In this document: one piece after another, positions 20,701-63,991 of the stretch
How positions within the stretch are numbered: the stretch's first letter is position 1
Layout: each line of letters opens with the position of its first letter
Source of the DNA: Lunularia cruciata
Taxonomy: Eukaryota > Streptophyta > Marchantiopsida > Lunulariales > Lunulariaceae
Direction of reading: 5' to 3'
DNA length: 64,000 nt
Assembly: GCA_948567375.1 (NCBI GenBank)
Contig: OX419755.1
Span: 47,820,291-47,884,290 of the forward strand
Notes under the pieces: model-generated
Told to the model about the DNA's origin: nothing
The model's database searches: none
What the model saw: the letters and a program-made list of their open reading frames with translations, nothing else
Made by a program: the position numbers and the translations under genes

Positions 20701-23700
20701 TTGGGTTCTCTCTGTGAATGTATTATTTTCGTAACTCTTTTATCTTAGACACTGTGGTTCAGGCTACAGTCCATACTCTTTTACACTCTTTTTTGGGAAC
20801 ATACAGGGTGATGTATTCTATTCTAACAAGATGCTATTTCGTTAAAAAATTTTATTTGGCACATACTTATTCACCATAGAGATATTCATACTTCATTTTT
20901 GTACCTTTGATAGTATCATACACCTCACTTTTTCCATTCTATTAAACCAATAATTATTAAATGAGCGATATTACTATAGATAACTCTTCCCATAACCATG
21001 GACTCTTGTAATTCCATATTCTAAGAGGCTATTGCATCTACAGTATATTTAAGAGCATGGTCTTTGGTAATTTTTCTATTGGAAAATATGTTCTTATATG
21101 GTTGTTTCTCTTTTTGTTAGCACTTATCACCATAGTAGATTCATATATTTCTAATATCTAGTCATATCTTTGTTTTACTCGTGATCTATAATCAAATTCT
21201 AATTTATATATAGCACTCGTCCCAATTATTTACTATATATCATTAGACTCTAAGAAGATTCAAGCAGATCTAAATGCAAGTATATATAGATCACATTCTT
21301 ACTAACCTCTTCAATGATCGCCTTCACTTCATGAAACTAGATTTTTCTCTTACTGAATTAAAGGCTCTAGAACTGACCTCCATACTTCCACTTTGATTGA
21401 GTATTCTCAATTCACATTTACAAAAAAAACACTAGAATGTTATGTAAAATTCCAACCCTTCCACTATGACACTTTTAACCTCTTTTTTTTTCCCTTTTAC
21501 ACTCTGGGTGCACTTGTATTCCTTTAAATATACTTGGTATCCGAGCTCGGATATCTTAGGTGCTGTAGGGTAGATTTCTCATATAGACTCTATTGGGGCT
21601 TAGCCCCATGTTACTTTTTTTTTCTCTCCCTTGTGCGGCTCGATGGGGGTCTTCCCATCCTTCGTTTTTCCTACGCGGTCGCCTTTCTTTATAAACATAC
21701 TCAAAATGAAGTCACGACGCTGCACCTTGACATGGGTATTGAGGCGGAGATGAATAGATATTACTCACTTTCAAGGCTTTACCATAGGTGGTGAATGGAA
21801 CATTGATTGGGAACTTCGCAGCAAAGCCGGCGTTCATCAGTGTGTGTAGTTGGAAAACTTTATCGTAATCCAACTGCCGATCTTGCTGGCCCCAAAGTAC
21901 GTGGAGCATGCATTTTAGTGTGATCTGCAAAACCCATCGAACATTGAGCTGATTTCACTGATTAGTCCACCTGTCAAACTTCAATGGGGATTTTGAAAAC
22001 GAAAATTTTGGGAACTTTACGTTCTCGTAAAATATTTTACGGGGCACGTAAAGAAAACTGACATCAAAATGAAAGAGTCTATAAACACTTGTTACGGGGT
22101 GGAATCTTTACGGGCATTTCCATTTTGGGTGAGAGTTAACGGGATTGATTGAGTGAGACCTTGTGAGTAATTATATTATTGGTAACGTACGTTGGTCAGA
22201 TCGGGTAAAATGTGCCGCATGTCCAAGAAACGAGTTCGAAATAGTGATACATGTTACCGGGATTTCACAATTTAACTCTGATTAAGTTTACCGGGAGATC
22301 CGGCAACCCCCTCACAAAGCTGCGGGTCATCTGTTTTATACACTATGGGTTTTCAGAAATAACTTTACTAACTTTCCCATAATTTATAAACTGTATTAAT
22401 TTACTAAGTGTGCGAAAAATCGGTTCGGGGCGGTTTAACAAGCAAGTTAGGGTAGATGATGGAGAGATCAGTCTAAGTTTTTTTATTTTTAACAAATTCT
22501 ATAAGAAATAAAAGATACGGAGTTTGCATCAACCCCATAAAAATTAATTAAAATTAATAAATAAATAAAAATTAATTTTAATTATTTGTTAATTTTATTT
22601 TTTACAAAATGATTCTAAGGAAAATCTCAGAAAAGTGTTGGGAGGTGCTTGAAGGTACTAGAGAGTGCATGGTCTTTCATTTCAATGAAATAGGTATTGG
22701 TTAGAGGTGGTTGGCATTGATTTTTCAGATATACTCTGATAGTTCAATTTGACATCCACGTCGATTGTTTGGTCTAACATTTATTTAATTACGGTACACC
22801 GAAACATCTATAAGTAGGAATCTGAATTAAAAAAATGAATATAAATTACACTAATTTCCCCTAGGGTTGAATTATTAGTTCATTGGTGAATTACAAAGTT
22901 CACTAAAAAATAATGAGTCACTGGTGAATTACAAAATACACTAAAAAATAATAGTTCATTGGTGAATTACAAATATTAGTTCATTGTTGAGTTACAAAAA
23001 CTCATTAAAAAATGCTATGAAATTATTATTTATCAATCCAACATCTATCAAAACTATTTTTGAAACCCCTTACTATAATCCTTTTAGATTATAAACCACG
23101 TCCCCTAAGGCAGATCGCATACCCCACTTCCCCACCCCGTAAAGGTATCCCGCATCTCCCATAAAGTTCTTTTACGAGATCTTTCCGGAAGTGAAAAACG
23201 CATTTTTGAAAGATTCGATCCCTACTGAGTCCTAAGATTGAGATCCCCAATCCTGACTGCCCTCCATGTCTGCCTGTGGTCCAAGAGAGCCAATGCGGAG
23301 AATAGTAGATCATGGGTGAAAGTTCAAAGCTTGTCTCCTATTCTCACTCATAAGTCTTCACGACGACACGATAGAATCAATAACATATACACGAAGATCT
23401 GTGCGGGGTCACAAGCGCAGTGCTCCCGGGTACTTGACTTCTATCGAACATACTAGCTTAGTCTCATTTTCAAAATTCCAGTAAAAGCAATACGTACCCT
23501 TTCCATTTCGTGAAGACCATTCAGAATTTCTCCGTCTTTCCAAGTGCCTATGATAGAGTTTGCCAGCGTGTCGAAATCCTGGATGCTTGAGCGAATTCCT
23601 TCACGCCCCAAAGACGATTTGAGTAGATTTCTTGTTCTTGCATTCTTATCTGGGTCCGAGAAACACTTCTCGGCATCTGTTATTCGAGTTATCACTGGGC

Positions 23701-24359
23701 GATAACCGAGCTGAAAAGATTTTTGAGCTTTTATAAGGATGAACCTGGCGGCCTCCGGAGTAGTAGTTACGATTGTATTCTTCCCAAATAGCTTGACTAT
23801 GTACATAGATCCATATCTGCACCCAACAATTGCAGATTTGCCATACCCGACGGCAACAAAGACTTCTGTTAGTTGTCTGTTCAGACTTATTCCAGTAAGG
23901 GGAGAATGAGGTATAAAGTTATGACAGAGAAGATCAATGCTCCATATCTCTTCGTAGTCTTCTAATTCTCCTCATACTTACCGATGAGGATTAACATCCC
24001 AGCTTTCTCTTCTTGTTTTGTTAGAGAAAAGTCTTCTTCCACTTCATCATATAACTTCAGAGATCAACCGCAGCACTGTGAGCCTAATTCCTCTCTCTCC
24101 ACATCACGCGACAACAGCAGCCTACAACGAGAAGGAAATAAGGGAAGGTACCCAACTCAGCTCTTTTCTTCTGCAGAAAGTTGTAAGGATCAAGCCAGAA
24201 TGCCGAAGTTTCTCCAAGATTTGAGTGACTCTTGCTGAAGGTGGGAAGATTTCTCCTTGTGCCCCTGCTGCTCCATAGAAAAATTACTGGAAGCACCAGC
24301 ACTCCGAAGATCAGAACTGCTAGCAAAATCCAGTCAGCCATTCTTGCTAATCCGAACAT
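17770..24359 (-). CDS. Cytochrome P450, CYP85-clan type, nine exons
   Basis: Exons: 24359-24152, 23816-23498, 21924-21769, 20105-19875, 19456-19367, 19247-19169, 18631-18528, 18173-18055, 17872-17770. Junctions 2 to 9 are phase-consistent. It encodes about 469 residues: an N-terminal membrane anchor (WILLAVLIFGVLVLPVIFLW), the I helix (IHAGYRTTAAVLVW), the K-helix ExxR (ETLR), FPDPYTFDPNRF, the heme loop PFGAGGHLCLG with the ligand Cys, and an FPMKV C-terminus. Exon number and motifs match the CYP85 clan (sterol, terpenoid or hormone oxidation at the ER). Histidine in place of Arg in the heme loop also occurs in CYP707-type enzymes. Oddities: the acid of the I-helix acid-alcohol pair is Arg; intron 4 uses a GC donor; exon 1 and exon 2 do not join in frame with the only good donor (G-GTACC at 24152), so a mini-exon, another donor or a 1-base lesion is possible. 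Met7 at 24341 (AGAATGGCT) is the better start. Substrate unknown. Confidence 0.88.
18797..18836. repeat. Perfect 17-bp inverted repeat (hairpin) in P450 intron 6
   Basis: TGCAAACAGGCGCATTG, a 6-base spacer TACGAA, then the exact reverse complement. Outside the perfect stem the flanking GTCG and TGAC extend the pairing past one mismatch. It lies in the intron between the exons ending at 19169 and starting at 18631. The loop is shorter than usual for a plant microRNA precursor. Confidence 0.9.
20240..21768. other. AT-rich insertion filling P450 intron 3
   Basis: P450 introns 4 to 8 are mostly 180-560 bp, but intron 3 is 1663 bp. From about 20240 the composition becomes T-rich and non-coding with no family motifs, and the right end is a copy of the short dispersed element (21529-21695). 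This looks like transposon-derived growth of the intron. Splice sites at both ends remain intact. Confidence 0.55.
21529..21695 (-). mobile_element. Short dispersed element, copy 1 (in P450 intron 3)
   Basis: Contains the family core: TAGACTCTATTGGGGCTTAG at 21577, the palindrome GGGGCTTAGCCCC, CGGCTCGATGGGGGTCTTCC, and the constant end CTACGCGGTCGCC. A longer variable end reaches back through GATATCTTAGGTGC, shared with copies 3 and 4. The strand given uses the GGCGACCGCG-first orientation as plus. Flanking direct repeats are not clear (a weak TTTAAATATACT against TTTATAAACATACT). It starts about 75 bp from the 3' end of exon 3. Confidence 0.8.
22009..23215. mobile_element. Probable DNA-transposon-like insertion in P450 intron 2
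   Basis: Intron 2 is 1573 bp. Its left part (22009-22120) contains GTTCTCGTAAAATATTTTAC followed by GGGG. Its right part (23100-23200), on the opposite strand, contains GATCTCGTAAAAGAACTTTA followed by TGGG and CTTTACGGGG. The two ends are therefore diverged inverted repeats rich in TTTACG words. The centre is AT-rich with a tandem array (22872-23010). No transposase frame is seen. Boundaries and class are inference. Confidence 0.4.
22872..23010. repeat. Tandem AT-rich repeat in P450 intron 2
   Basis: Four diverged units contain AGTTCATTGGTGAATTACAA followed by a CACTAAAAAATAAT-type tail. The units are about 25-40 bp and begin near 22877, 22915, 22952 and 22977. Non-coding. Confidence 0.75.
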
Positions 24360-25016
24360 AATGTCGCCCCATCAACCAAACAATCTGCACTAAATTCAAA
24401 TCCACTTCCCTTTGGTCATAGGTCATCGAATCCGGGAGCAGTAGGGGCCCTCCGCTTACTATTTCCTTTTTTCCAAAACAAGTTATAGGGTCCCGACTTA
24501 AGGGGATCTGTTTGTTTCAAAACTATTTTTAGGGGTCTAAACCTAAGTGCTCCATTCAAGAGTAGTGAGTTTTGGGATTGCAGGCAGTGTTCTTGCGCAT
24601 ATTTTATTTTTTAATAGTGTTTTATCAATCTTAACCTGCACTATTGATACTTTAACTTAGTAAGATAATAATATTAAGATAGTGGAAAGCATTTAAAAAT
24701 CAATTATTCAATACTTAAAATTAAATTAACTATATTTAAAATCTTTTGTTATATATATAAAAAAAAATTTATTCTCGCTTTTATATTGTCAAGGTTGTGA
24801 AGCTCACTTCCTACTCGTTCGTGCTTCCAAAGTGAGAGAGGGAGAGAGCAACAACACAAAGTCCTATAAGCCGAGATTCATGAACTAGCTCCGGCTCCGA
24901 AGTCTCCGCCCATTCATACCCAAATTTAGGATCACCCGGTAAGCAAGCCTTATGAATCGCATTGTGGGTGGGATCCTTTTGATTCGGCTTCATCATAGTG
25001 TTGTGTACTCATGTGG
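24360..25016. promoter_or_regulatory. Upstream region of the P450
   Basis: Sequence 5' of the P450 start on the minus strand. It is AT-rich at 24590-24780 and then more balanced. I cannot point to a specific TATA box or known element, so only the location supports a regulatory role. Confidence 0.25.
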
Positions 25017-25128
25017 CACCAATCATCCAGCTATATATGCTCCCTAAACACATGTTTAATGCTTACTCATACTTTACTCATGTGGGACCGATCATCCAGC
25101 TATATATGCTCCCTCAACACATGTTTAA
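25010..25128. repeat. Two direct units of about 69 bp
   Basis: CTCATGTGG(C/G)ACC followed by ATCATCCAGCTATATATGCT and CCCT(A/C)AACACATGTTTAA occurs at about 25010 and 25079, with few mismatches. The second unit ends just before the left target duplication of the dispersed element copy 2. Confidence 0.85.
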
Positions 25129-25143
25129 GGTCATGCAGAGAAG

Positions 25144-25253
25144 AAAATGAAAAAAGGCGACCGCGTAGGAAAAATGAAGGATGGGAAGACCCCATCAAGC
25201 CGTACAAGGGAGAGAAAAAAGGTAACATGGGGCTAAGCCCCAATAGAGTCTCT
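25144..25253 (+). mobile_element. Short dispersed element, copy 2 (110 bp, with target duplication)
   Basis: Starts AAAATGAAAAAAGGCGACCG and ends CCAATAGAGTCTCT; the middle has GATGGGAAGACCCCATCAAG and the palindrome GGGGCTAAGCCCC. It is bounded by the 11-bp direct repeat ATGCAGAGAAG at 25133-25143 and 25254-25264, which is best explained as a target-site duplication. It lies about 0.8 kb upstream of the P450 start, in inverted orientation to copy 1. Confidence 0.85.
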
Positions 25254-25858
25254 ATGCAGAGAAGTAGCTTGTCACGTATTCCATTTGCTTGTCACATGAA
25301 GATGCGTTCCATGTTCTCTTGTGGGTCGCTATCACTTACTCAATCCGATTGGATTTTATGCCTCTATATTTCTGAAATGCATGTATAGATCATTATCAAA
25401 TTCTCCAAATCACTACTTTTGAGACCTGATACCTCCACTGTTACAGGGTGGAGAAAAAAACTTACAGCAATCCATGAGAGAATGTTATTAGGCAATCAAT
25501 CAAGCACATACTAATGTCTATAGAAAATTCTGCCCATCTAGCTAGATTAGTGTTTGTGGCAAACACGGGTAATGAGGTAGAAGGTGGAAGTCCAATGCTA
25601 AGAATATTTATTAACGGAACACACGGGAAAAGAAATATCAGACTAGGTAAAAAGAAATATATGAGTTCAGAAATGAGATACTAATCCTGGTCCTTTTAAG
25701 CGTATGGTCATGGAGTATATAAAAGTATGGACATCTTATTTTTGTTTGGTAGTATACTCATAAGGGATACATCGCGTATAAGTCATTTGTTTGATTATTT
25801 CTTTCTTGTAAACCAATACCAGGAGCATTTTCATATACTTCTCATATTGATTGCTCCC

Positions 25859-25974
25859 GCAGAACAACATACAAAAAAACCTTTCAATGTGTATAATCTT
25901 TTAATCCATTGGTTGGCAGAACAACATACAAAAAAACCTTTCAATGTGTATAATCTTTTAATCCATTGGTTGGC
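25859..25974. repeat. 57-bp direct duplication
   Basis: GCAGAACAACATACAAAAAA to CCATTGGTTG occurs twice in a row with a period of 57 bp and no visible mismatch. The identity suggests a recent duplication. Confidence 0.9.
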
Positions 25975-26378
25975 GAGAATGTAGATATATTAACAATACT
26001 AATAAATGAACTAGTGTTTTTAGAGATTTTGTACTTATAAATTATGTTATTATAAATTAATTCCAATAAATTAATTTGACATCATAAATTTTTATTAAAT
26101 TATTTTATAATATTCTATATCACTTTAATATAGATAATTGAGACTCAAATTTTAGAGGATATTAAAAAATTACATCAATAAATCAAAATGTAATACTCTG
26201 TATATTCTATCAAAGTAAGGATGTCTCATTTCTATTCTAGATATCATTATTATAATTATAATATTCAAGTTCATAAAACTTAGCATATTTGTTATGTTGA
26301 TCCATATGAATTTAACAAATTTCTAGCATACAGTATATATTTCTGTAGAGTATAATAAGAATAAGAATAGAATAAGAA

Positions 26379-26383
26379 GAAGA

Positions 26384-26416
<33 letters not shown>

Positions 26417-26435
26417 ATTACTATTATTATTATAT
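26379..26435. repeat. ATT microsatellite
   Basis: About 17 ATT units with small interruptions (TAATATTACT in the middle), preceded by AAGAATAAGAATAGAATAAG. Simple sequence repeat, probably length-polymorphic. Confidence 0.9.
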
Positions 26436-28807: not shown

Positions 28808-28840
28808 AAACACTCTTTATTATTATAATAAAGAGTGTTT
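28808..28840. repeat. Perfect AT-rich palindrome
   Basis: AAACACTCTTTATTA, a three-base centre, then TAATAAAGAGTGTTT. This is a 15-bp stem without mismatch. It could be a cruciform or the scar of an inverted duplication. Confidence 0.85.
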
Positions 28841-30788
28841 ACAACAACTTGAGAAATTACCAAATTCTATCCTTTATTTCTTAATTATAGTCAAAATTTA
28901 TTAATGATTCATAACTTGTTCAATTACATCTTCCAAATTAACTAAATAGTATAATTTAAAATACTCTAACAGAAAATTATTTCTTTTGGATTTTGGTCTT
29001 TTACAAAAATATTGACAAATTTAGAATGTGCATTTATATTTGGAGGTTTACCTCTTAGAGTCGTATGTATTAGGTCCTATTTTTGTAGCATTCGAAAGCT
29101 CTGGTCAAGAAGGTTCTAGAAGATAAAAAGATATTGCAAGAACATCATTATCGAGTAAGTTATTTAAGTTTGAATTAAATTATGTTTTGATACCCTAAAA
29201 CTTGGAATCAGAATCTAGGACTCCAAAATGAGATACAAGTAGTTTAAGAAACGTAATTAGATCACATGGTAATCAAAACTAGTGCTAATTTTACCATCAA
29301 AATTCCTTGATAAGAACTTTCCAATAAAACCAAGTTTGGTTTAAATCATAGAAGGCTTTTAAATTTAAGGTTTTAGTAGTGTATAATTTGGATAGATCAA
29401 AAGAAAAAGAGTTTGAGAGTAGTTTAGAAGTACATATAGAAAGGTGTTTCGAAGGTTAGAAGTATATATGTTTCCAAGGTAAGTTTAGAATCTAAACTTG
29501 TAGTGAATTATTGTCAAAGTTAATCCAAGATATGAAGTAGATTTTAGAATTAATGTTATTGGTTCTTTACTAGCCTTATAATGGAAATAATAAATGTCAA
29601 GAAGATATGTATAAGACTTTAATCTTGTTTTTAGATTTAGTGTCCCGTTGTTCGTTGTCGTAATATTCTGATCGACCCTTAATCCATGAGACACAAACCA
29701 TGAGCTAGACATAGCAAAACTCTATAAAATGGACGAGCGGGTTGATGGGTTAACACTCGTACAAAGACTCTTAACTACTTACTAATGATGCAAAGCTATT
29801 TATCACAACTTAATGAAAAGCACCAAGTAACTTAGGCCAAAAAGGAGAGTTAGTGTTAGGGGAAGTAGATACTCGCACTATGAGTTTATTTAGTATAATG
29901 CAATACATAAAGACTTATATTTTAGGAGGGAAGGGTACTGTCAGATTTCTAGCAAGTGCATTTGGAAAATCATCCAACATAATATTTAATTTCTTAATGA
30001 TGTAATACAATAATCTGATTCTATATGCTGCTTCCTTTCTTATCGAATCTCTGTACGTACACTTGGAGAATCATTCAACCTAGTGTGTTTTATTCATAGA
30101 GGGGTAGCAGCAAAATTATGCCACCTGAGGTTGACTTATTATTTAATGCTCTCCCCTCAGTTTAAAGTACCATGCTCTTCCATCAAAATTGATTCTCTAG
30201 TATGGAAAGAAAGATACAATAAGAAAGGTGTTAGCCTCCGCACTTCAGCTTCTCTAGCTGCTTGATGTATGGTCACTAATCATCTCATTTGAAATTCATT
30301 AATAGGACTTTATATTCCCTCGATGTACTCTAAGTATACAACGAACCATTATATCTTTACTCCTTCCACAAAATGACGTAGGTTTGTTTTAAGAACCATT
30401 CTGACCACCGCTTGAACCTCTTGTCTAACTTTGACCTGCAATATCTTCTTGACTACCCTTATTCTAATTATAAAGCCCGTAAAAATCTCCCATTTCTCCC
30501 ACATTTAGTAAAGCAGGTTACTACCGCCATACATCTTGTTGTCTTTGTGACTTTATTGTTGTAGACTCAGGTTTTGTGATTTGATTTGTGAGACTTGGTT
30601 TTGCCACTACCACATCCATGTTCCGAGCTTGCTGATCCTTTGTGAGTCGTTGTGGGGTACCGCAGTTTGGTGGGTGGGAAAAGCCGTTCTAGTTCTACTA
30701 TGGATCTAGCCACCAAAAAGAAGCCCAAAGAAGAGAAATCTCATGTAATCACAATACTCATGGGAGGAGGGGTGACAGAAGGTTCGTT

Positions 30789-31409: not shown

Positions 31410-31630
31410 GTTTCCTGAATTCCTTACACCGATAAACGCGACCGCGTGTGAAAACAAGAAGGAGAGGAAGGCCCATCAAGCTCGTACAAGGAAAAGACAA
31501 ACGTACAAGGAAAAGACAAAGGGGGCTTAGCTCCAAATGGGACTTAGCTCCAATAGTATCGGTAAGAGAGTTTGCCTTGCCGCATCTAAGATATCTTAGC
31601 CATGCAAGTTGTTTCCTGAACTCCTTACAC
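31410..31630. repeat. 20-bp target duplication bracketing element copy 3
   Basis: GTTTCCTGAATTCCTTACAC at 31410-31429 and GTTTCCTGAACTCCTTACAC at 31611-31630 match at 19 of 20 bases and bracket the element at 31430-31610. Confidence 0.8.
31430..31610 (+). mobile_element. Short dispersed element, copy 3 (long form, 181 bp)
   Basis: Begins CGATAAACGCGACCGCG, then CCATCAAGCTCGTACAAGG, CTTAGCTCCAATAG, and a long end with CTAAGATATCTTAGCCATGC. It carries two internal duplications: CGTACAAGGAAAAGACAAA occurs twice, as does the CTTAGCTCCAA block. It is bracketed by a 20-bp near-perfect direct repeat, so both ends are defined. This copy shows that the full unit is at least about 180 bp and that copies 2 and 5 are shorter at one end only. 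Confidence 0.85.
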
Positions 31631-32723
31631 AGGCTTGTGCGTGTGACGCTGTAGGCATATTCCAAAGCGTATTCGTTGTACTGAGATCCTGTTTCAGATC
31701 CCCTTGGTCAGCGAAGTAGCTGTGCAAGGTGAAACTTCGACTATACATTATGAACTTTACATATGTGTGTATCGTACTGTATGTTACACGAATCAAGAGA
31801 TACTATGCCGCTAGACCTGGGCATTGTACAACTCATCAGCACCTGAATCTTAGGGATGTACTGTATACTTGCATAATGGATTGTAGTTTTGAATTGCACA
31901 TGGCAGAGCGGAGGGAAGAAGAACTGCGGTGTTGGGAAGACAAAATAGAATGGAGTAATAGCGAGTCGATGATCTGACTTTAAAGTTACAGTGCATTTCC
32001 TACTGTGTATATGTAGGGCATCCGCATGCACCGGTATAAGAAGACTTGCTATGACGGACCACAGGAGCTGAAGAGTAGCGAGGACCGTCAGTCCAATTTC
32101 ATTTCACGAGCGAAACCATGGAAATTCACGGAGACCCAGACTAGACAATTTTCATGTTCGGACTAGATTACATGAGAGCTACGGTCATCCATTACATTCG
32201 AGGAAAACTGCCTAACTCTCGATACATTAGCAAAACTGTCTGCATTCAAATGCAATGACCAAAACTTCTCAAGATACTTAATCGTGGACTGGAAGTTGTA
32301 GATCTAATCAGCAGTTGATTGCCAAGACTGTAGGCTGACAAAGATGACCGAAAATATGACCCATCCCAGAATTCGGTTACTGCGGATGATAAATTTTATG
32401 GATTTAGTCGATGGGATTTGTGGAAACGTTGCCCTCGTTGGAGCGATATATTCAAGTTTTGTTACAGCTCGTAACGGCTCGTCCATGTTATTGAATTTGG
32501 AAGGCCTTGGCGTGGCAATACGCTAATTTGTCCTGTCATAAAAAGGAACCTCGATGGTCCCACCTCGATGATCGTGCTGCAGACAACTCATCTCAAAACT
32601 GAGACTAGGGAATGGACGTGAGAGGATGGAGTGTTTGGTTACTTAGTGCAATTCAGTGTATGAGCAAAGCTTCCTATGATTCTTTACTCGTGAGACCCTG
32701 AAATAGCTACCGCACCAATTGAA
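31631..32723. other. No gene recognised
   Basis: Mixed-composition sequence with only short frames on either strand and no family motif. It may be decayed genic flank belonging to the relic at 30789-31350. Confidence 0.45.
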
Positions 32724-32957
32724 AGGCTAACGAAGGTCTTGCACCCAACGACATGGAGTGTGAGAAAGAACTACAAGCGAGAGATTCGACGCTTGAATCT
32801 TTGACCTATTGCGCTTATTGGGTATACAATTGGGTCTTAAAGGCTAACGAAGGTCTTGCACCCAACGACATGGAGTGTGAGAAAGAACTACAAGCGAGAG
32901 ATTCGACGCTTGAATCTTTGACCTATTGCGCTTATTGGGTATACAATTGGGTCTTAA
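32724..32957 (+). repeat. 117-bp exact direct duplication
   Basis: The block starting AGGCTAACGAAGGTCTTGCA at 32724 is repeated at 32841 with no visible difference. The period of 117 bp is 39 codons, so an open frame runs through both units (LAPNDMECEKELQARDS in each). The frame then runs directly into copy 4 of the dispersed element. I do not regard it as a real protein without further evidence. Confidence 0.9.
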
Positions 32958-33216
32958 ACAAGAGAAAAAGGCGACCACCTAGAACACATGAAGACACATT
33001 TGTTGGTTCGTACAAGGGGGAGACAAAAGAGGTACAAGGGGGAGACAAAAGAGGTAAAACGGGGCCAACCCCAATAGTATCTATATGAGTTATCTGCACT
33101 ACCATACTATACCCAAGCTACCCAAGATACCCAAGCTATGCAAGTAGTAAAGTCTATAAAATACAGGATCATCCTAAGATACCCGAGCTATGCAAATAGT
33201 AAAGTCTATAAAATAA
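32958..33216 (+). mobile_element. Short dispersed element, copy 4 (long form with duplications)
   Basis: Starts AACAAGAGAAAAAGGCGACC and contains GTACAAGGGGGAGACAAAAG duplicated in tandem (about 22-bp period), GGGGCCAACCCC, and CCAATAGTATCTATATGAG. A long end with CCCAAGCTATGCAAGTAG follows. That end is itself repeated: the unit at 33129 recurs at 33181 (52-bp period). Clear flanking target repeats were not found. Confidence 0.75.
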
Positions 33217-33231
33217 GGTAGAATCCAAAGA

Positions 33232-34925
33232 AGCATCACCTAGAGTGATTGCTCTCCTATCGATTGCACCAACCAATGCTCTCTGTATAGCAATAGACAC
33301 ATGCTGGCTAAAGTATGCTACAAAGTATGAGAATGATAATGGTACCCCTTAGCATCTAATATGATAAGCTCTCGCATACTCTCTTACAAATGTGTCAAAC
33401 ATCGTGTCTATAGTTCCATATAACTCCAAGGCTAGAGGCACAAAGAGGTGATCTCATTGCATACTCCTATATTTTGAGACCTTGCATGCTGGTACTCTGC
33501 TTGTCGCCCCTCTAGGAGGATGAGTAATCGCTTCCTCCAAATTGTATCATGCACTGAGTCTATAACCACAACATCCGCCACTATCACTTGATCATCTTGG
33601 ACCAAGTATAAATCTAATAAGTATCGTTTGCAAAGAATATGAACACTCTCTCTAAGCAAGGTATCCACTCTCTTGTGCATAGCAAACACTATATCCTTGA
33701 TGGCATCATGGGTAGTTATCCTCTACCTTCCATAAGGACAACGTGTTACATGGATTGCTATTGCATCTAGTGTAGAACCACACTCACAAGTGAGTAACAA
33801 AGATGTAGACAGGTGTACCAAACCTAGGTGGAACCTCATTGCTATAGAGAAAGTGGTTGGTGCGAGTCAAAATTCCCTAATGTACGATCAAGCTAGGATC
33901 CAAGGGCATGCATCCTTGCTAGAGCAAGAGCGAAGACATGTACTAATGGCCCAAGAATGGACGAGTCAATTAAACAAGAATGTAACATATGTTGACATTG
34001 TCGCTCCATCAATGATGACTACAAACCTCAAGTCTAATTTGACGATAGTGAAGCAAAGGATGGAAGGTCATCTCATGCCTATGAGGATAAACCATCTCTT
34101 GTCTGCCGCAATAATACATGGAGAGAGAAGGATCCCTCTTCCACTTCAATCACATATGTCTCCAAAACTGGCCTATCAACAACCATAAAATGGGACAAAA
34201 GTAGGATGCCAAGGGAGCCCAACTATCCAAAAATGTTGTAGGTGCCATCTCCTCCATAGATAATAGGTCTACCTCTCTGCATAAGGTTGGTAGGGATATC
34301 TATCTATGTGCCAAATCCCCCGTCACACACTCAAATTTCCTTGGTCTGATGTTGTCACCAAAGACTCCCATAATCTTTCCATCAAAAGCTCTCAAACATG
34401 ATATGGAAAGTCAAGAAAGAGGGAACCATGCGGAGAAAGTAAGTTGGTAAACAAGCAATACTAGAGGAGAGTATAGAAAATGCCACCTATGGATCTTCTA
34501 ATAAAGGAAGGGCATCTACATGGAGAATATTCTCTACAAAGGCAACGTCTAAGAAGCATGTGATAAAATCCTTGAATCCTATTGGCACTCCAAGAATGCG
34601 TAGTTCATCTATAGATGTGACACACCCCTCTAGAAGCTCAAGGTAGAGAGGAATACCTAAAGGGGACCATGCTATGAACTTTGACACCTTGACTCTCAAG
34701 CCTACAAGATGTAGCTTGGTAGTCAAGTGATCAAAGGCCTACCTAATATGATCTATGGGGCCTACAATGTATGTATTGTATGCTAAGGAGGGAAATACAC
34801 AACTTTTCATAGCCAAAGTTGTAGATAAAAGAGCTCTAAATTGAGCCATGGCTAACAAAGGTCCCCTTAAAGGATCTCCTTGTCGTGTATCAACAATTGA
34901 CTCCAAGATGGTGATTATTCCTTGT
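33232..34925 (-). pseudogene. LINE (non-LTR) reverse transcriptase, 3' part, dead
   Basis: Minus-strand blocks in order: DTRQGDPLRGPLLAMAQFRA (about 34890), then FPSLAYNTYIVGPIDHI (about 34780), then TTKLHLVGLRVKVSKFIAWS, then ELRILGVPIGFKDF (about 34600-34550). The C-terminal block is VIVADVVVIDSVHDT (33432-33689). This order is that of plant and algal LINE-type RTs. The catalytic motif, normally ADD, reads AYN, so both catalytic aspartates are gone. Many stops and frame changes follow. It starts abruptly at the LTR fragment (34926), so the N-terminal part including the endonuclease is missing. Confidence 0.8.
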
Positions 34926-35048
34926 GACCACCTATAACAATATTGTCGTACGCATATACATCACTACACAACATACATAATTGTCAACATCACATACTAT
35001 AGAAGCACAACTCACACATAAGTCATACATGGACTCTAAAGTGACACA
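34926..35048 (-). mobile_element. Partial second LTR of gypsy element 2
   Basis: Reading on the minus strand from 35048, TGTGTCACTTTAGAGTCC through GTTGTGTAGTGATG matches the first 120 bp of the LTR at 35049-35582. It is cut short where LINE sequence begins. Together the two form another directly adjacent LTR pair. Confidence 0.7.
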
Positions 35049-44960: not shown

Positions 44961-45043
44961 GGATTGAATTGACTAGTGATACACCAATTTTTTGACATCC
45001 CAAGATATAGCAATATAAAGAGAGCATTGATTCAAAACCGGAG

Positions 45044-45460
45044 TATAGATCTTTTTGAGATTGGTTTGGTAGAGATTTCACATGGAGAGTATGCTTTAAC
45101 TACAATGATGCAAGCCAAGAAGGATATGCATCACAACTACACAAATAGGCAAATGTGTGGATACTACTATCCTAGAACCGGATTGTAGATCTTTTTGAGG
45201 TTGGTTTAGTGGAGATTTCACATGGAGAGTATGTTTTACTACAATGATGCAAGCCAAGAAAGACATGCATGGCAACTACACAAATAGACAAATGTGTGGA
45301 GATTATTATCCTAGAACCAAAATATAGATCTTTTTGAGGTTGGTTTTTTGGAGATTTCACATGGAGCGTATGCTTTAACTACATTGATGCAAGCCAAGAA
45401 GGATATGCATGGCAACTACAAAAATACGCAAATGTATGGAGATAACCATCCTATCAGTTG
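45044..45460 (+). repeat. Reverse-transcriptase segment in three tandem copies
   Basis: Units of about 139 bp start at 45044, 45184 and 45323, each with TAGATCTTTTTGAG, then GATTTCACATGGAG, then ATGCAAGCCAAGAA. The first translates to GLVEISHGEYALTTMMQAKK, the palm-proximal RT region. The period is not a multiple of three, so the array by itself destroys the frame. Confidence 0.85.
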
Positions 45461-49202: not shown

Positions 49203-49488
49203 TCCCTATAATACTTTCAGGCCATGCTACAATAGTTGGTTTAGGACAGGTAAGCTCATCACATACCGGTTCATTCATTAACAATTCATGTTCTTGGACT
49301 ATAATATTTTCAGGCCATGCTACAATAGTCGGTTTAGGACAAGTAAGCTCATCACATACCGGTTCATTCATTAACAATTCATGTTCTTGGACTATAATAT
49401 TTTCAGGCCATGCTACAATAGTCGGTTTAGGACAAGTAAGCTCATCACATACCGGTTCATTCATTATTGATTCATGTTCTTGGATTAC
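49203..49488 (-). repeat. 93-bp tandem repeat that preserves an open frame
   Basis: CAGGCCATGCTACAATAGTC-type units start at 49218, 49311 and 49404, period 93 bp, nearly identical. On the minus strand the unit translates to a 31-residue repeat with MNEPVCDELTCPKP and TIVAWPENI. The frame is open across all three units (about 49464-49120 with its flank). No upstream gene could be joined to it. It could be a minisatellite or the remains of a repeat protein exon. Confidence 0.85.
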
Positions 49489-49599: not shown

Positions 49600-51950
49600 T
49601 ATCTAGTGTATCCTATGCTTTGGACAGCCTTTCGCTCCTCCATTCTTTGGTTGCCTTGACTTATCTATTCTGATCCTCCTTTCTTCAAGTTCACACTCCG
49701 GTGTCAACTACTCCTCTATTCTGTTGCCTACTCCTCCACTTATTTTCAAGATTCTCCATTTCACCCTTAATCGTGGACAAATTGTCCGTCCCTCAAGCCC
49801 TACTCCATGTCCATAGTATGTGCCACCTTTGCATCTTCCTATCAGCCTCTTATTGTTCAAGTTTCCATCCTCCTCAACCACGTCTGACTCTTCTTGTTCT
49901 TGGTCTTTATTCAATCCTCATCTCAATTCTCACATTGACTCCCCATTTACTCACCTTGATAACCATGTTCTATATATAGTTTCTTCTTCTCATTCTATTT
50001 ATTGGTTTACCAATCCCAAGGTCCACATCAGCCTCCTCCGGTCAGCCACTTCTTGTTCATAGCATAGGTTTCATCCTTGTTTCTAGTTCCATGCTTACTC
50101 ACTTCCATCCATGTCAATTTCTTACTTTCTCGTCCCATGCTGACTCACCTCTATCCACATCCATGTCAGACTTATTGTTCATGGTCACTACTCTGCCCAT
50201 GTTTGGCGTTACTCTTTGACTCACCTCGTGGCACATCAAGACAACTCTATTCACCATCTTGAGATTTATAGCTTTACCCATCCCTCTTTTTCCTACACAT
50301 TACCTCTTTTATGCTCCACACATGGGGACCTCTTTGTGTGGAAATACTTCTTTTGGATCCATCTCTGCACTTAACCTTATGCATACTTTCCTTTTCCCTC
50401 CAAGCAGAATAGATTGGCTCACAATAGCTTGGTCTCCAAAAATTACCCTCTTCATCTGATTCAGAAATATATTTGCTCTATCTTACAAAAGAAAAGATAT
50501 CCATGGTTATCATAGGCTTAGTATCTATAGAGATTTAAGAACATATGTTCTTTTTGCCAAGCAGGGAGCTCATGTTTGAGCTCACCAGTAGTTTCTCCTA
50601 TAGGCTTGCATATCATACAATTGTAGAGGAATTTTGCTTGACTTTTGGACTTATATTTATACATTCTACCACGATTTTAATTGACATATGGTTGTATGCC
50701 ATGTGGTCTTTGAGTGTTTCCTTATGGACACATGGCCCGCCTTGTCCATAACTTCATCCAATGCAGATTTTGCCACTTTTCTTTGCTCTTTCTTACAGTG
50801 CTCTATGCCTTTTCATGCTTTTCCTTGCTTCTTTGTTCTTTGTGCTATTCCTTCTTACACCTTGCCTTGTTGCGATATATGTTATATATTGTCCTCTTTC
50901 TCTACGCTCTCGATACTACACTTCGATATGTCTCTGCAACAACACCATCAATAGGCTCTCGCATTGTTCCACTCCTCCATTCTCCAGCTAATTCCTTCCC
51001 TATCTCTCCTTCACTACTATCTCTCCTTCACTCTTTGCCTGACTCATGGTTTAACCTCCTGTGTCCAACCTATGTTTTAATTTTCATTGTTCATGCACTG
51101 CTCATTGGTGTTCAAATACATACTGTTTATATTTCTCACATTCGCTTGCATAGCTTTTATTGATTGATTTCAAGGTATTTACTAGTCCTTTAGATATGTA
51201 TTATTCTCAATATCTTGTTCTCAATTTGTTGCAATTATACCTTTGCTTCATGTTACATTCGAAGCATTCTACTTATGAATTTATTACTATTCTAGCTTGG
51301 TGCATAAAGTACGTCTTCGATACTAATCATTTCATGAGTTCTGGATCATCGGGCTCCCAAAACGGCTTCTGCTCTCATATACCTATATCTCTATAATATT
51401 ATTAGGAATGAAGTGTTAGTCTATCATAACAACTATGGATAGCAACTGTGGAGTGACAACAAACCAAATCTCCAAATATAGTAAAAGTATGTGACAAGAT
51501 CAGCTCTTTATACAAAGAATATAGGGCCATAGATACAATGTTTAGTCCATTTGTCAAGGAATACAAGAGAACATATCATACCACTCTCATAGATCATAAC
51601 ATACTATAGATACCATATATCCATGGCTCTACAAAGAATACTGGCCAATGCAATCTGCAAGAGAACAATCACACTAAATGACACTTCTTCCATTGCTCCA
51701 ATTATTTCTAAACCATGCGACTAACAGAACTCGGATGTTGTGGGTGCTATATAGCAGTTTCGACTCCCCATTACTATTCTTAGCCACAGTTCACTCCTTA
51801 TGATTTCTTGTAGAGCTTGATGGGGTGTCCCAATCCTTCTTGTTATCCTCAGAGGTCAATTTTCTCTCCTCTATTTCACGACTCTAGTTCTTCAAATAGG
51901 TGTTTACTCTTCAAAAATATTCCTCGTCACATATCAGTTGCAACTCTTCT
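49600..51950. other. Pyrimidine-rich stretch, no convincing gene
   Basis: From about 49620 to 51150 the plus strand is rich in C and T (CTCCT, CATCC, TTCTC words), which keeps several frames open on that strand without any family motif. None of the frames (for example 50714-51163) shows domain sequence. From 51160 to 51950 the sequence is ordinary AT-rich DNA. Confidence 0.5.
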
Positions 51951-57136: not shown

Positions 57137-58352
57137 CTGTACGAAGATGTGTAAACGAACATGTTATCTGAACCAGACAATTACGGACATACAGTTGTCT
57201 CGTCTTCAGCGACGAGGTTTTACCCACAAATCTGATCTTCATCTAGTCATGTGAATCGCTTCCCAACTGTGATCTCTGTAGTTAGAGAAACTGGCCTGGC
57301 GTTTGTTTCGTCAGCATATAGCTATTCTGGATAGCATCACCTCTAGGCACTGATGGAATGGATAATCCCGACCAGAAAAACGGGTTTAGTCTGATTTAGT
57401 CTAGTCTAGCACGGATGAACAGGAAATTTGTAGCTCCGGACAGGGAACTCTGTGTTAAAAGCCTCGTGTCACACATCAAACCAGCGGGACACACGTATTG
57501 CCAGGACCCTCTATCAACGTAGAGCTTTCATAAAAGTGGCGGGATTAGATTCATCCTTCCGCATCTCAAAATGCAGGCCGGCCGAGCTTTAACCACATTG
57601 CGATCATAACACACACGCTAGCCAAGCACATGTAATTCTGGAGTAATTCCCTCAACCAAAGGACAATAACCCACTTGTTTGTGGATCTTCGGATTTTGAT
57701 TTGACTACACGCAGAGGTAGGAGATTTATCTAAGCATAGCAATTTATTCTGGCAAAGACACTACCGCGCGAACGCAGAAATATAGTAGACTTGCGATACC
57801 GTCCAGACATGTTCACAACATGTCAAGAACCACGGAAGCCTCAAACAGTGTTTCATAAAATTCTATTCAGGGGATGGTACTCTTCATACACTTCAAAATA
57901 CATCCCACTATGGACGATACCCAATATTCTCCAAGTAAAAAAGGGACGTCCACGCGAAGACTACAGTGTTGTTGCAACGATTGTTCTGATAATCGGTCCT
58001 CGCCAAAATACGCTCTAATCATGTAGGTGTAACCTCGTAAGTCCTGTGACTTGGAAAAATTGAGAAGGGAAATGAAACTCACATGACGCTTCGGGTGATA
58101 AGTGACCCCACCATCTTGATCTTCCGACTTGTTCGTATTACTTTCTACCAAGAAGCTGTATGCTGCATAACCCTGTCAATCAGACCAACCCGATAATATT
58201 CTCCTTTAGTTGTTCAGAGGCCCCCGGCAGATTTCGTCGAATTAAAGAGAAGATTTTCTCCCAAAGGCACAAGCTTCTTGTCACTCCAAGATCACAACCG
58301 TTAACAGAGAACGTTCCTGGTACTTCAGTTCCGCTGACACGCACAACATCCC
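57137..58352 (-). other. 5' part of the HVA22-like gene, start exon unresolved
   Basis: One candidate exon is 58168-58083, between ATTGACAG and GTGAGT. It translates to GYAAYSFLVESNTNKSEDQD and ends PKRH in phase 0, which would join in frame to the exon at 57136. It has no ATG of its own. It may belong to this gene or to another minus-strand gene. Nothing else in the interval shows a recognisable motif. Confidence 0.3.
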
Positions 58353-59071
58353 TTGAAACAACCACTTCGTAAACCCGACGATGCCGTTGTCAGAGTTCAA
58401 ATCATGAGACAAAGCCTCTTCCACAGCAGCCACCAGATGTGCAACAATTTCCAGAGGTCTCAAATTACACTTCATCAGCGAAACGTTTTCTCATTCTCCC
58501 AGATCATTCAGCGCAAATACAACATTCCATCTCATCCAACACGTTCCTGGACTCCTTCCTCCCCCATGACTGTCCTCCAGACCACAATTGCAAAGTCTCA
58601 ATTGGTCCAATCTTCCACCAAACCAAGCTCCACTCAATCACAACAACCTCGTACACAGTGCCGATTTGGACATACAAGCAGCGGCAACAGCCCCGTCCTC
58701 ATCCTCCAAGTCCACACGGCATCTTTCTTTCATCAATTCTTCCATTCCTCACCAATCGGATCAGCTTTGCTTCACGCAATGAAAGTGTCCATCATCCGCA
58801 CTCAAAGCCAATCAAACCACCAGCGCCTGCATCTCAAGTTAAACAGAACCGAAGAAGGGACGTTCGCTACGTCATCGGTCCACTATCTGCTCCACGATCT
58901 ATCGGTCCCATAGTCTTTCAAACTCGACTCAAACTTTACTCACTTCCTTTCCTGAGGAGGAAAGGGCGCGTCCGTTGCAGAACGGGAACTGCCTGTAGAC
59001 GGTCTCCCTCACCGGCACCGGAAAGAACACACCCAAAGTCTTCAATCTTGTCGTTGAGGGCCGTACGTTAG
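58353..59071 (+). other. C-rich region with two long overlapping open frames
   Basis: Two plus-strand frames of 186 codons (58353-58913) and 210 codons (58439-59071) overlap in different phases. The DNA is C-rich and T/A-poor at stop-forming positions (many CAA, CCA, TCC, ATC words), so open frames are expected by composition. Neither translation shows a domain. Both are rich in Ser, Pro, Gln and His. It lies upstream of the HVA22-like gene, so it could be its promoter or 5' untranslated exon. Confidence 0.3.
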
Positions 59072-59299
59072 ATCACTAATCGTCGGCTTGGATGAGAGTG
59101 TCATTTTGGCGCACTTTTATTTACTGACAGTAAATGGTACCATTTCAATCCTGAAGGGACGGCCTACTATCAGTCATCTTCTCACCTCCGCTTTCGTCAG
59201 CGTAGCCTGCAAGGCGTATCCTTTTCCTCCACATCACGCGCTCGACTACGGTATTGTACTAGTGGAACTAAACTGCTTATCCTAATTTGAAAAGTAGAC

Positions 59300-60900
59300 A
59301 TAAAAATAGACATCACATTAGATTACAGTACTTGCATGATTACGATAGAAATTAAAACTAACGTAATCACACGAGCATTATGAATGATCTCGCTAATTTC
59401 TTACTGAGGAGACCAATTCTTGCACGCTTCTGTTAGAGAGTACTCTACAGAGCCTACAGTATTAATTTATAAAGTAATAACATGTACGTGCCAAATAGAC
59501 ATTCTTACCAACTAAAGCAGATCCAACACTCATAAATTGTCATATTTTCACTGTAATGTAGAGACAGGACATGGTCTTCTGTAGCCTATAAACTAGTCAA
59601 ATACACATGAGTACTGGAGTCAAATGGCGTGGAACTTCTCTGCAAACAACTTGCGGCAAGTTGAGATATAAAATATTTCACGAGTCCCTTAGTTATAAAT
59701 AATTCCCACACTCTTTTAAGTTTTTAATTCAAGATCGTTCACCGACTTGTCAAGTGCAATCGGTATGTTGCAGTTCTGGCATAGACACAATTGAACCAGT
59801 CCACGCACGCGTCGGCAGTCAAATTTTGGACTTCTAACTAATCACGAGCATACCATCAAATTGGCGTATAGTAATACACTTTTCATGTAGAAGCTCAACC
59901 GTTAAAGATATACTTATGGACCAACAAGGTCCAGGGGAACGTGGCGTCGAATCTAAACGTATCTTGCCCCCACGTTCTCCGAATCGACGGCATACTGCGC
60001 GGACCGGAAGAATAAGGTATTGTCCATGTGGCATCATTCGACGTAGGAGATAGCAACCGTTGTTCATGACCTAATCTAACGGGAATTTAAGTCCAACATT
60101 GAGACGACTTGAAGCTAGCTACTCGATACGCATAATCCAAGGATCTCGATACCACTCCCATTATACAGTACTGTAGTGTCACTTATGAAAGCGACAAAAG
60201 TTACAATTTCTATTGTTAGTTATTTCCAACATAATATAAGTTTTAGTATAATAGCACCACAAACTTGACTCTAGATTTTCTTTTGTCTCCACTTCTTGTG
60301 TCGTGTGTGCTACGAAATGCATGGTGCTAATTACTTTTGAAAATTATATGTCTGTAAGAACCAACAACTCATGCCAGCAATTTTTGTAGCATACCTTCCG
60401 TTTCGAAAGCTTTTGAACTTCTTGTTCCGATTAGAGAATATAATCCATGCCAGCAATTTATATAGCATACCTTCCGTTTTGAACGCTTTGAACTTCTTGT
60501 TCCGATTAGAGAATATAATTTTTCTATAGTCTTGTTACTGTAATCAGATCTTGTCATACCGATTTAGTGGAACTGTAAGTGGGCCAAAATGAATTTGTGA
60601 CGCGTTTGTACTTAGGGGTAAAGGTCCAGCTAACAAACTGTAGGGAAAATTACAAGAACATACTCTGAATAGGACAGGATCATGTCATTGTCATGAATAG
60701 AAAATTGCAGTTTTTATCTTAATTTGATTGCAATTAATATGGGGTAATTCCCTCGGTAATCTTGTCATCGTTGGTTCATGTCCTCAGGTTCGGACGGTGC
60801 ATTGCAGGAATGTTCTAACGGCCGTCGGTGATTTGCCGTCATCGCTGCTGCAGCGACCATGAGCACGACCCGCGGTGTTCCATGCACAGTACTGCATTGC
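59300..60900. other. Intergenic, no gene seen
   Basis: AT-richer DNA with only short frames. It contains the 76-bp duplication at 60370-60520. No retrotransposon motif or RNA gene was recognised. Confidence 0.5.
60370..60520. repeat. 76-bp direct duplication
   Basis: Units start CATGCCAGCAATTT at 60370 and 60446 and end TTCCGATTAGAGAATATAAT. They differ at only a few positions (for example TTTTGTAGC against ATATAGC). Confidence 0.9.
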
Positions 60901-60904
60901 AGTA

Positions 60905-60920
60905 TTAGGGTTTTAGGGTT
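60905..60920 (+). promoter_or_regulatory. Telo-box-like element upstream of the DUF4602 gene
   Basis: TTAGGGTTTTAGGGTT, which on the other strand reads AACCCTAAAACCCTAA, sits about 300 bp upstream of the ATG at 61223. AAACCCTA telo-boxes are typical of promoters of plant ribosomal-protein and ribosome-biogenesis genes, which fits the product assigned to this gene. The functional role is inference from motif and position. Confidence 0.55.
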
Positions 60921-61222
60921 GTGGATCTCACGATTTTCTCGTACTGTTGTAACGGAGGAAGTATGTGATTTGGATACGGAAGAAATGCTAACTCGAGTGT
61001 TGTGGAAGCGTTTGATTTAGTTGCTACACAGTGATTAGATTTCGTGCTTTTATGCGTTTTGAACCTAGGTTGAGGAGCTGAATTCGGTGTCTGGATCACG
61101 CGGCAGCAATGTCGACGATTTTAAACCGAAGACTCAGTCACGCGGAAGCGAACGACGCTGGGGCAAGCAGGATCAATAGGGACCTAGAAGAATTTTAGCA
61201 CTGACACTACGCAGAAGAGAAG

Positions 61223-63036
61223 ATGGCTGCTCCCGTTTTTGATGGGACAGTGGGAGATCGGCTAGTTAATATGATCGGGAGGAATCCCAGCAGACGGAAG
61301 CTCAAAGGAGGAGACCTTGGCACTGATGACGTCAACGAGCAGAGAGAATTCATCAAGATTCTGAAAGAAGTAGAAGCATTAGGTATGATCTTTCAGTCAG
61401 GAGCGTCTTGTCAATTTGGTGATGTATTTCAATTGCTATTCTTCAACTCACTGTACCGCACGATACACTAAAGACTGATTAAATTTCTCAAATCATCAAG
61501 TATTATGAGTTCGTGAACGGATCCTCTTTGTCTGTCTGAAGTGTCCTAAGAATCGAGTTTATTTTGCTCCCACCACCATCGCCTTGTGTCTATCTGCTTT
61601 CTAAGCAATCACAGCACAGTGTGATGTGCATCACGATCATGAGTTTTTGTCGGTGTCTGTGGCCTCAAAAGGAACCTCTCAGCTGGGCTGGAAGGAGCGA
61701 AAGGACTTGGAACAGAAGAAGCTGGAGTCTCTTGGAGCGAAGGTGAAGATCAAACCCCCGTAGAATTCCTCCAAGCGCTTTGGAATATTATCCTGTTCCG
61801 GGTTTTCTCCACGGTTGGTCTTTTTACTAGAGAATTGGATTACCGTAGTTTGGTTTCCTCGAGGAAATTTTGTTCAGTTGCCACTTTTTGAGAAACATGC
61901 GTACTGGTCTGTGATAAGCTATCTCAGTTATGAGAATAGTCTGTTTGCGGAAACGAGGAATGCACATGCTATGGTCGAAGTTTGGTGGCACAGGCTGGAG
62001 ATATGATTCTTCAATTATAGACTTGCCATTTTCTTTCAGGCAAAAAAAAGTTTTAAAATGCCCATCTCTATGGGATCGAACATCAAGCGGAAACGCGAAA
62101 AACTCGACTCGGATAAACTAGTGGAGGTGATCGCTTTCTTCCATCCAATGCTTATTTTCTCTTGACTAGTTTTCTCGAAGTCTCGTTTATAGTAGTGTCC
62201 AATCTCTTTGTGGCCAGTTTGTAGTTCACTATAGCCGAATTAAGCAGGTTTCCTTCATGGGAGGGAATCTCACCTCCTCTTTCTACGCCATCTCTGACCT
62301 AGGTGCTGTTGTCTAAAACGACCTTGTCAAAATTAAAGCCCCGGGGCCGTTTTTGCCTTAGAGCTGCAACTGTGTCTGCCCGAAGATGCTGCGGTAGGCA
62401 GGCTCATAGTCCTTACTCAAGCCCTCCAGGAGGCAAGGATTTTTTAGACCCTATATACCTTAGGGCAGAACAGTTGGCAGCAACACACGACGTCTCATAG
62501 GTCATAGCGACATGACCAAAGTAAAGGGCGAACGTACAGCCGCACTCGATGTTCTATCTACTTGTGTCCATTAAGCCGTTTCTGGAAATAATGGAAGGGG
62601 ATAGTGAGTTATAATAGTTGATAGCGCCAGTAGTGTTGGTCCTCGTAATACCGTCGCCCCTTTTGTCTGAATTCAAAGCTTGTTAGATGAGCTGTTTCCT
62701 GGTATAGCGCACGTTTTATTAAAGGGGGTGATCCTTTGTGAACAGGATGCTCTTTCCGGTCTTCGGCCAAATAAAAGCGGGAGGAAGGCCCCACGTAGAG
62801 AAAGAGAAACTGGAGAGGACAAAGGTCTGCAAGCCTCGGAGGGAAAGTTTAAAGGAGGTGTTTTATATGTCAAGCCTCTAGTCAAAGCACCAGTCGAGAG
62901 CAAGCGTCGAGGCGGTGATCGTTCTTTAGATAGAGTTTTTGGTGAAGGTAGCGGAAAAAAAGGAGGTGGAAAGAAAGGAAAAAGGAAAGGCAAAGGCAAA
63001 GGTGGGAAGAAAAGTGGAGGTAAGAGAAGACGATAA
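61223..63036 (+). CDS. C1orf131/DUF4602-like nucleolar protein (Faf1-type SSU processome factor)
   Basis: Four exons with matching phases: 61223-61382, 61672-61742, 62040-62126, 62746-63036, giving 202 residues. The start context (AAGATGGCT) is strong. Junction 1 splits a Gly codon, producing REFIKILKEVEALGTSQLGW. Exon 2 continues KERKDLEQKKLESLGAK, the conserved DUF4602 core. Exon 3 is basic (NIKRKREKL). Exon 4 has DKGLQASEGKFKGGVLYVKP, the second family hallmark, and ends in a Lys/Gly-rich tail (KKGGGKKGKRKGKGKGGKK), probably for nucleolar or RNA binding. Related proteins (yeast Faf1, human C1orf131) act in small-subunit pre-rRNA processing. The intron of about 620 bp before exon 4 could hide another exon. 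A telo-box lies upstream. Confidence 0.8.
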
Positions 63037-63876
63037 TCTAACTTTGTAAATTCAACAAATGAGAGTTTAGAGAGTAGAGTGCTGTCCTTGCTCAATGAGC
63101 TACCTTCCTCACACGTCAGGTCGTGAGCCATTTGAGTGCGAATGAGTTTAGGGTTTAGGGTTCAGGGTCCTGTAAGATCAAGGAACCCCCGCTTGCACTT
63201 CCTAAAGAAAGCCTGATATTAAATTCTGAAGTTATTGAATCCTGTTCTCCGATGCTCACCCATTTTTCTGAAGGATATCGGATAGCTCGATCCCACATTT
63301 CTTGGTTACATACATCAGTCCGCTTTCATCAGTTCTGCATCCATGCTGAATTATCAAACCTCCCCTCCTATGTCCAAAAGATCTCGCTAGATTGATTTTA
63401 TTTCCACATCGGTAGACCTACACCGTATGTCCACGCAGCCGAGAACAGGCGTGGATCTATAATGGCACCAAACCTCTGTTGTCTGGTACTGCTAACGGCC
63501 ACTGCACCACAACTTGCAAGCTGGCCGTAACAAAATACCGCACGGCAAGTGACCATGGAGGCTCTGGGATGAGCATTTGTCGTAGGCCTTGCGTATCCAG
63601 TTGCCTCATAATTGGCTAAACTTCCCCCCAAGACGTCAGAGTCATCCATAAACTCAACTTCTCAATCTGCCCTCGAAGACGGATCTGGATCCCAAAACCC
63701 ACTGTTGTAAACAGAGACATGTTCTAGCGAATCTCAACTCCAAAAATCCAGGGAATCCAAGCTCATTGTCTATTCACGGCTAGATTTCATGTGGCTATCG
63801 TTCACTCTATATATTTGTTTCCTTGGGTGGAGCCAGGTGAACATGCTTCAGGAATATTCCTTCTTACTAATGACTG
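63037..63876. other. 3' flank of the DUF4602 gene, no further gene
   Basis: No convincing coding sequence. The open frame on the minus strand at 63398-63649 shows no motif. Contains short telomere-type repeats at 63146-63167. Confidence 0.5.
63146..63167 (+). repeat. Short interstitial telomere-type repeat
   Basis: GTTTAGGGTTTAGGGTTCAG is two TTTAGGG units plus a degenerate third (TTCAGGG). This is the plant-type telomere repeat, here in internal position 110 bp after the stop codon of the DUF4602 gene. Confidence 0.8.
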
Positions 63877-63885
63877 CTTTCAGTT

Positions 63886-63991
63886 TCATAGACTCTATTG
63901 GGGCCTAGCCCAATTTTACCTTTTCTGTCTCTCCCTTTTACGGCTTGATGGGTCTTCCCATCCTTCGTGTTCTCTACGCGGTCGCCTTTTC
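63886..63991 (-). mobile_element. Short dispersed element, copy 5 (106 bp, with target duplication)
   Basis: Reads on the plus strand TCATAGACTCTATTGGGGCC, then CGGCTTGATGGGTCTTCCCA, then CTACGCGGTCGCCTTTTC. It is bounded by CTTTCAGTT at 63877-63885 and 63992-64000. The right copy ends exactly at the window edge, so the duplication may be longer. Same short form as copy 2, at least 30 kb from any other copy. Confidence 0.85.

Follow-up and report, generated by a model that had tools for sequence, protein, structure and literature searches.

Short dispersed repeats in the liverwort Lunularia cruciata are probably the 3′ ends of an R2-like LINE

A family of short repeats lies scattered through a 64-kb stretch of the genome of the liverwort Lunularia cruciata (contig OX419755.1, positions 47,820,291 to 47,884,290; this whole stretch is called the window below). 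On the evidence of the sequence, these copies are probably the 3′ ends of an autonomous long interspersed nuclear element (LINE) with a single open reading frame (ORF), belonging to the early-branching, R2-like type that carries a restriction-like endonuclease (RLE); we put the probability of this reading at about 90%. That the element is a LINE is near certain, and its assignment to the RLE type is strongly supported by the features of its predicted protein. A preliminary description had taken the repeats for a separate small element family, and had named a match of their core to part of a larger transposon as a result that would tell against this. Such a match exists, the core being the 3′ terminus of a LINE of about 3.7 kb with an intact ORF.

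The nearly constant end that is common to copies of all lengths consists of GCGGTCGCC followed by a T-rich tail. When oriented copies are printed with their flanks, this end is shared and the opposite side diverges at many different points, and one long copy used as a query gives matches from about 100 nt up to its full 1.6 kb. After the removal of duplicate loci, 101 distinct 3′ ends range in length from 34 nt to at least 1640 nt, where the longest values, and several near 500–620, are lower bounds set by the end of the sequence stretch taken; 52 of the 101 are under 200 nt. The earlier proposal of 5′ truncation, with GCGGTCGCC and the T-rich sequence as the 3′ end, agrees with this nearly constant 3′ end and with 5′ ends at many points.

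Three long copies continue together to about 3.7 kb and are 97–98% alike (reference length 3704 nt). Locus L092 (G000:C8:38121700-38125600) holds an unbroken single ORF of 1055 amino acids (aa). The genome has many near-identical full-length copies: in a protein search, all 44 scored places, drawn from 26,787 first-look candidates, cover aa 1–1055 at 98–100%, and 26 of them are stop-free. The 14-mer GGCGACCGCGTAGG occurs exactly 2839 times in the 565.8-Mb genome (1441 + 1398; reversed control 0), and scored copies are spread over all eight large contigs. The flanks of 65 loci, a non-random sample of 169 kb, add 34 matched stretches, some of which may be pieces of one copy (reversed controls 0); the window contains six in 64 kb. 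In the stretches examined, the density reaches one recognisable 3′ end per 5–11 kb.

Many copies are flanked by short direct repeats. Among 68 distinct copies with both flanks available, 28 have a flanking repeat scoring at least 9, compared with 13 of 1337 mismatched pairings, and 15 have one scoring at least 12, compared with 0 of 1337; the repeats are 9–24 bp long. With wider windows, an earlier pass that still contained three duplicate rows found such repeats at 31 of 71 copies and in 7 of 346 mismatched pairings. The share of copies with a duplication grows with identity to the reference, from 9/30 below 85% through 7/17 at 85–95% to 12/21 above 95%. Full-length copy L092 is bounded by the duplication TTTTATACAACAGA (14 bp, one mismatch), and the full-length copy L044/L089 by a 10-bp repeat. 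Flanks, including those directly upstream, vary between copies, and we rejected a target motif because the bases around the 28 duplication starts show mild A/T richness at most. Integration looks target-primed and without a fixed site. Retroposition through LINE-type machinery, with target duplications of variable length, had been proposed at the outset together with a prediction of tens to thousands of copies, and the duplications of 9–24 bp and thousands of exact 3′ ends bear both out.

The 1055-aa ORF has an N-terminal CCHH finger (CPVCHRRF..H..H) from residue 18, a reverse transcriptase (RT) domain (Pfam RVT_1, E 4.7e-15, aa 335–569) with QGDPL at 470 and ADD at 503, and at 835–851 a CCHC-like knuckle in which all four ligands are rightly placed. 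The RLE signature of D-X12-D and KX2KY is present as D895, D908 and K939-V-S-K-Y; in RLE LINEs the catalytic lysine is the first K of KX2KY, as described in an excerpt of PMC5678591. KVSKY is kept in five of seven printed relatives below 93% identity, including L053 (51%) and L076 (62%). None of the three Pfam matches to the ORF up to E 1 is an apurinic/apyrimidinic endonuclease (APE). Six Protein Data Bank sequences match up to E 1, of which three R2 proteins are best (3.9e-8, 6.6e-7 and 1e-6), followed by retron-type and group II RTs at E 0.12–0.34. The element thus combines an RT in a long ORF with the constant 3′ end, 5′ truncation and variable target duplications of a LINE, and its single ORF has the N-terminal zinc finger, RT and putative C-terminal RLE of an RLE LINE. 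In the main group features that we tested it behaves as an RLE LINE, with the exception of an altered knuckle spacing.

Several results weigh against this assignment. The knuckle spacing, C-X1-C-X9-H-X3-C, departs from the CX2-3CX7-8HX4C published for the CCHC knuckle ahead of the RLE (excerpt of PMC5678591), and KVSKY is broken in two of the seven relatives (L004 and L007). A single-sequence search with the RLE region alone gave no R2 match, and its best hits were to unrelated proteins (best E 0.84). Each of the R2 alignments has a second, weak segment that covers the knuckle–RLE block, and these second segments are non-significant alone (i-Evalue 130–170). On the supporting side, in comparisons with each of two R2 segments the block scores above all 2000 shuffles (z 9.6 and 9.0), which we count as support and no independent discovery because the segments were picked on the ground that phmmer had already aligned them. 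At the lower threshold 40 of the 68 copies have no duplication, and the flanks of the full-length copy L030/L091 contain none that fits. Exact 14-mers at 0, 127, 1545 and 2851 nt from the 3′ end number 2839, 1727, 498 and 912 (reversed controls 0, 1, 1 and 2), an unsteady fall toward the 5′ end; site conservation therefore also matters, and the counts form no clean truncation gradient. Two 3′ hairpins are preserved in 93% and 90% of the cells of 51 distinct rows, with five and two two-sided changes compared with up to four and two in slid controls, and because these numbers are barely above or equal to the controls we make no claim of structure. RNAalifold predicted three base pairs from a 53-row alignment.

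Within the window, a profile built from the 3′-terminal 110 nt and searched at E up to 0.01 finds six matches, and none in the reversed window that served as the control. Five are the copies of the preliminary description, all of them present close to where it had placed them, and the sixth is new (profile match at 51779–51857). The copies, with their flanking duplications where these were found, are as follows.

Copy 1, 21544..21691, plus strand: LINE 3′ end of about 139 nt with 93.6% identity to the reference copy, followed by a T-rich tail.
Copy 2, 25133..25264, minus strand: LINE 3′ end at 25156–25256, with its tail at 25144–25155.
Copy 3, 31410..31630, minus strand: old LINE 3′ end at 31437–31612, 69% identical to the reference copy.
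Copy 4, 32971..34942, minus strand: decayed, 5′-truncated LINE of about 2 kb, with broken pieces of aa 450–1055 (RT, knuckle and putative RLE).
Copy 5, 63877..64000, plus strand: LINE 3′ end at 63888–63985.
Copy 6, 51520..51860, plus strand: old LINE 3′ end and a broken coding remnant (aa 960–1046), overlooked before.

The direct repeats that had been reported at three copies are all there: ATGCAGAGAAG (11 bp) at 25133–25143 and 25254–25264 around copy 2, a 20-bp repeat with one mismatch at 31410–31429 and 31611–31630 around copy 3, and CTTTCAGTT (9 bp) at 63877–63885 and 63992–64000 around copy 5. The flanks of copy 1 have just one weak repeat (10 bp with one mismatch), and a search of the flanks of copies 4 and 6 gave no convincing direct repeat. 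Copy 4 extends beyond 33216, where it had been thought to stop; its similarity to the LINE continues to about 34914–34942, with a nucleotide identity of 77–80% and minus-strand tblastn pieces of 50–64% from 34942 to 33067. Not every motif said to be shared by the five copies is letter-perfect in each of them: copies 3, 4 and 5 have a changed version of the palindrome GGGGCTAAGCCCC, copies 3 and 4 a changed GGCGACCGCGTAG end, and the GATGGGAAGACC block is missing from copy 4.

In copies 3 and 4 a similar GTACAAGG block is tandemly duplicated within the LINE 3′ region, at 31483–31520 (19 bp × 2.0) and 33010–33064 (22 bp × 2.5). Two perfect tandem copies of a 117-bp unit (100% matches) at 32722–32958 stop about 12 bases short of the 3′ end of copy 4; this duplication appears recent and the adjoining copy 4 is old.

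The short intervals first reported, of 106–259 bp, and the 52 of 101 measured lengths under 200 nt would also suit a non-autonomous family of about 106–180 bp, like a short interspersed nuclear element (SINE), that borrows the 3′ end of a LINE. We regard such a family as highly improbable, given that 5′ ends fall at many places with no common 5′ head among the copies printed, that copy 4 extends into LINE coding sequence, and that searches of the window found no transfer RNA (tRNA) and no Rfam family at the gathering score. A SINE was rejected because no 5′ head of its own was seen, truncation occurs at many points, and the tRNA and Rfam searches of the window showed no head of the RNA polymerase III type. 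The preliminary description had itself noted that the repeats resemble no tRNA, 7SL or 5S RNA and fit no standard SINE; the lack of such similarity and the missing polymerase III boxes are both explained by the core being the 3′ terminus of a LINE.

Plant LINEs are said to belong to the L1 and RTE clades (excerpt of PMC11288735), and the element could be such a LINE, with an APE endonuclease and a C terminus that merely resembles an RLE. RTEs are likewise without poly(A) (excerpt of PMC10741241), and the failure of the single-sequence search to recover the RLE region alone would fit. Against this, the Pfam matches to the 1055-aa ORF include no APE domain, the protein has an N-terminal CCHH finger, R2 proteins are its best Protein Data Bank matches, and both D-X12-D and KX2KY are present; we therefore think a usual L1 or RTE element very unlikely. 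The palindromic segments and short direct repeats could be expected of a DNA transposon, a miniature inverted-repeat transposable element (MITE) or a Helitron remnant, an origin made extremely improbable by duplications of 9–24 bp, by the wide variation of one end and by the RT encoded in the long form. The variable duplications and the RT ORF led us to reject a MITE or Helitron.

As an autonomous RLE LINE, the element would be expressed as an RNA encoding one 1055-aa protein, which may bind the conserved 3′-terminal ~110 nt of its own RNA. The RLE would nick chromosomal DNA at loosely selected places, and the RT would copy the RNA from the nick by target-primed reverse transcription, beginning at the T-rich 3′ end. 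Copying would often stop early, leaving 5′-truncated copies, and second-strand cleavage at a variable offset would produce the 9–24-bp duplications. The element may be active at present. In most young copies, differences from L092 are spread about evenly over the three codon positions, the pattern expected of dead copies, and for this reason purifying selection on the young copies was rejected. L078 (79% identical to L092) shows a modest third-position excess, with 86, 80 and 122 differences at codon positions 1–3. At L053, L076, L078 and L088, tblastn pieces of about 50–77% identity mark more distant relatives of the LINE protein, suggesting that older RLE-LINE families are present within the same genome. 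A fasciclin gene lies close to one LINE copy.

Elements of the R2 clade insert at one fixed site in 28S ribosomal RNA (rRNA) genes. The liverwort element resembles R2 (R2Bm, R2Tg and related RLE LINEs of animals, with a single ORF) in its N-terminal zinc finger, RT, CCHC-type knuckle and RLE with D-X12-D and KX2KY, and in having copies that are 5′-variable and 3′-constant. It differs in its plant host, its altered knuckle spacing, its dispersal away from a single site in ribosomal DNA, and the lack of an Rfam ribozyme in the loci searched, among which L091:2300-2800 gave one chance-level match (E 3.5). R2Bm, for its part, carries an N-terminal Myb motif (excerpt of PMC5678591). Rfam found no family, including no rRNA and no U2 gene, at the gathering score in the whole window, and nothing, again including rRNA and U2 genes, up to E 1 in L089, L091, L092 and L044; a known structured RNA was rejected on these results. 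We do not claim membership of the R2 clade proper, because one fixed 28S rRNA site does not accord with copies on all eight large contigs, differing flanks, 2839 exact 3′ ends and the absence of rRNA from the Rfam results.

Utopia elements, RLE LINEs that target U2 small nuclear RNA genes and are reported from arthropods, reptiles and oomycetes, have precise 3′ and variable 5′ boundaries as the liverwort element does, and 20-bp duplications in their reptile families (all from an excerpt of PMC4640811). By contrast, U2 genes are absent from the Rfam results for the window and for L089, L091, L092 and L044. Dualen/RandI elements are green-algal LINEs that carry two endonucleases, one of them an RLE. 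They share with the liverwort element the status of RLE-bearing LINEs of green plants in the wide sense, and differ in that no APE domain was detected in the liverwort ORF. Plant L1 and RTE elements are also dispersed and 5′-truncated with variable duplications, and RTE also has no poly(A), whereas the liverwort LINE has an RLE in place of the APE, a single ORF and an N-terminal CCHH finger.

Site specificity is given as the general rule for RLE LINEs (excerpt of PMC5678591), and a 2025 review places R2 in animal genomes and has no words starting with 'plant' or 'fungi' in its text (PMC12203849). Partial texts of the open-licence literature matches listed report no RLE LINE of land plants, although a Repbase entry or a subscription paper may do so. 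It seems somewhat likely that land plants, in at least one non-seed lineage, host thriving R2-like RLE LINEs that have abandoned fixed target sites and multiplied into a very common repeat, and that these form a new RLE-LINE clade and an exception to the L1/RTE rule. A LINE with an R2-type endonuclease, of a sort that is not ordinarily described in plants, would broaden the known contents of plant genomes, and finding a scattered relative with recent activity in a land plant would bear on where an ancient LINE group persists and on how target specificity is lost. R2 elements are under study for transgene insertion (excerpt of PMC12222951), for which a natural relative with apparently relaxed targeting and 26 of 44 scored copies stop-free would be a useful comparison. 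For annotation the element carries a warning, as short LINE 3′ ends that are T-rich rather than poly(A) may pass as SINEs or remain 'unknown'; Lunularia cruciata has a large share of 'unknown' repeats, perhaps liverwort-specific elements (excerpt of PMC9985172).

Elsewhere in the window, a fragment of a reverse transcriptase/RNase H of the long-terminal-repeat retrotransposon type lies on the minus strand at 3896–4507 (RT_RNaseH_2, 3.3e-11), and an ORF with a conserved domain of DnaJ homologue subfamily C member 28 (2.1e-22) lies on the minus strand at 15364–15939. Tandem arrays occupy 45036–45453 (139 bp × 3) and 49206–49484 (93 bp × 3). The genome also contains LEAFY, recognised by PF01698 (1.9e-35) and PF17538 (2.8e-53), each of which was found in 0 of 14 control genomes. 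The closest Protein Data Bank match to the LEAFY DNA-binding exon is 4bhk, which we take to be LEAFY of the moss Physcomitrella, and the liverwort sequence has H where 4bhk has D.

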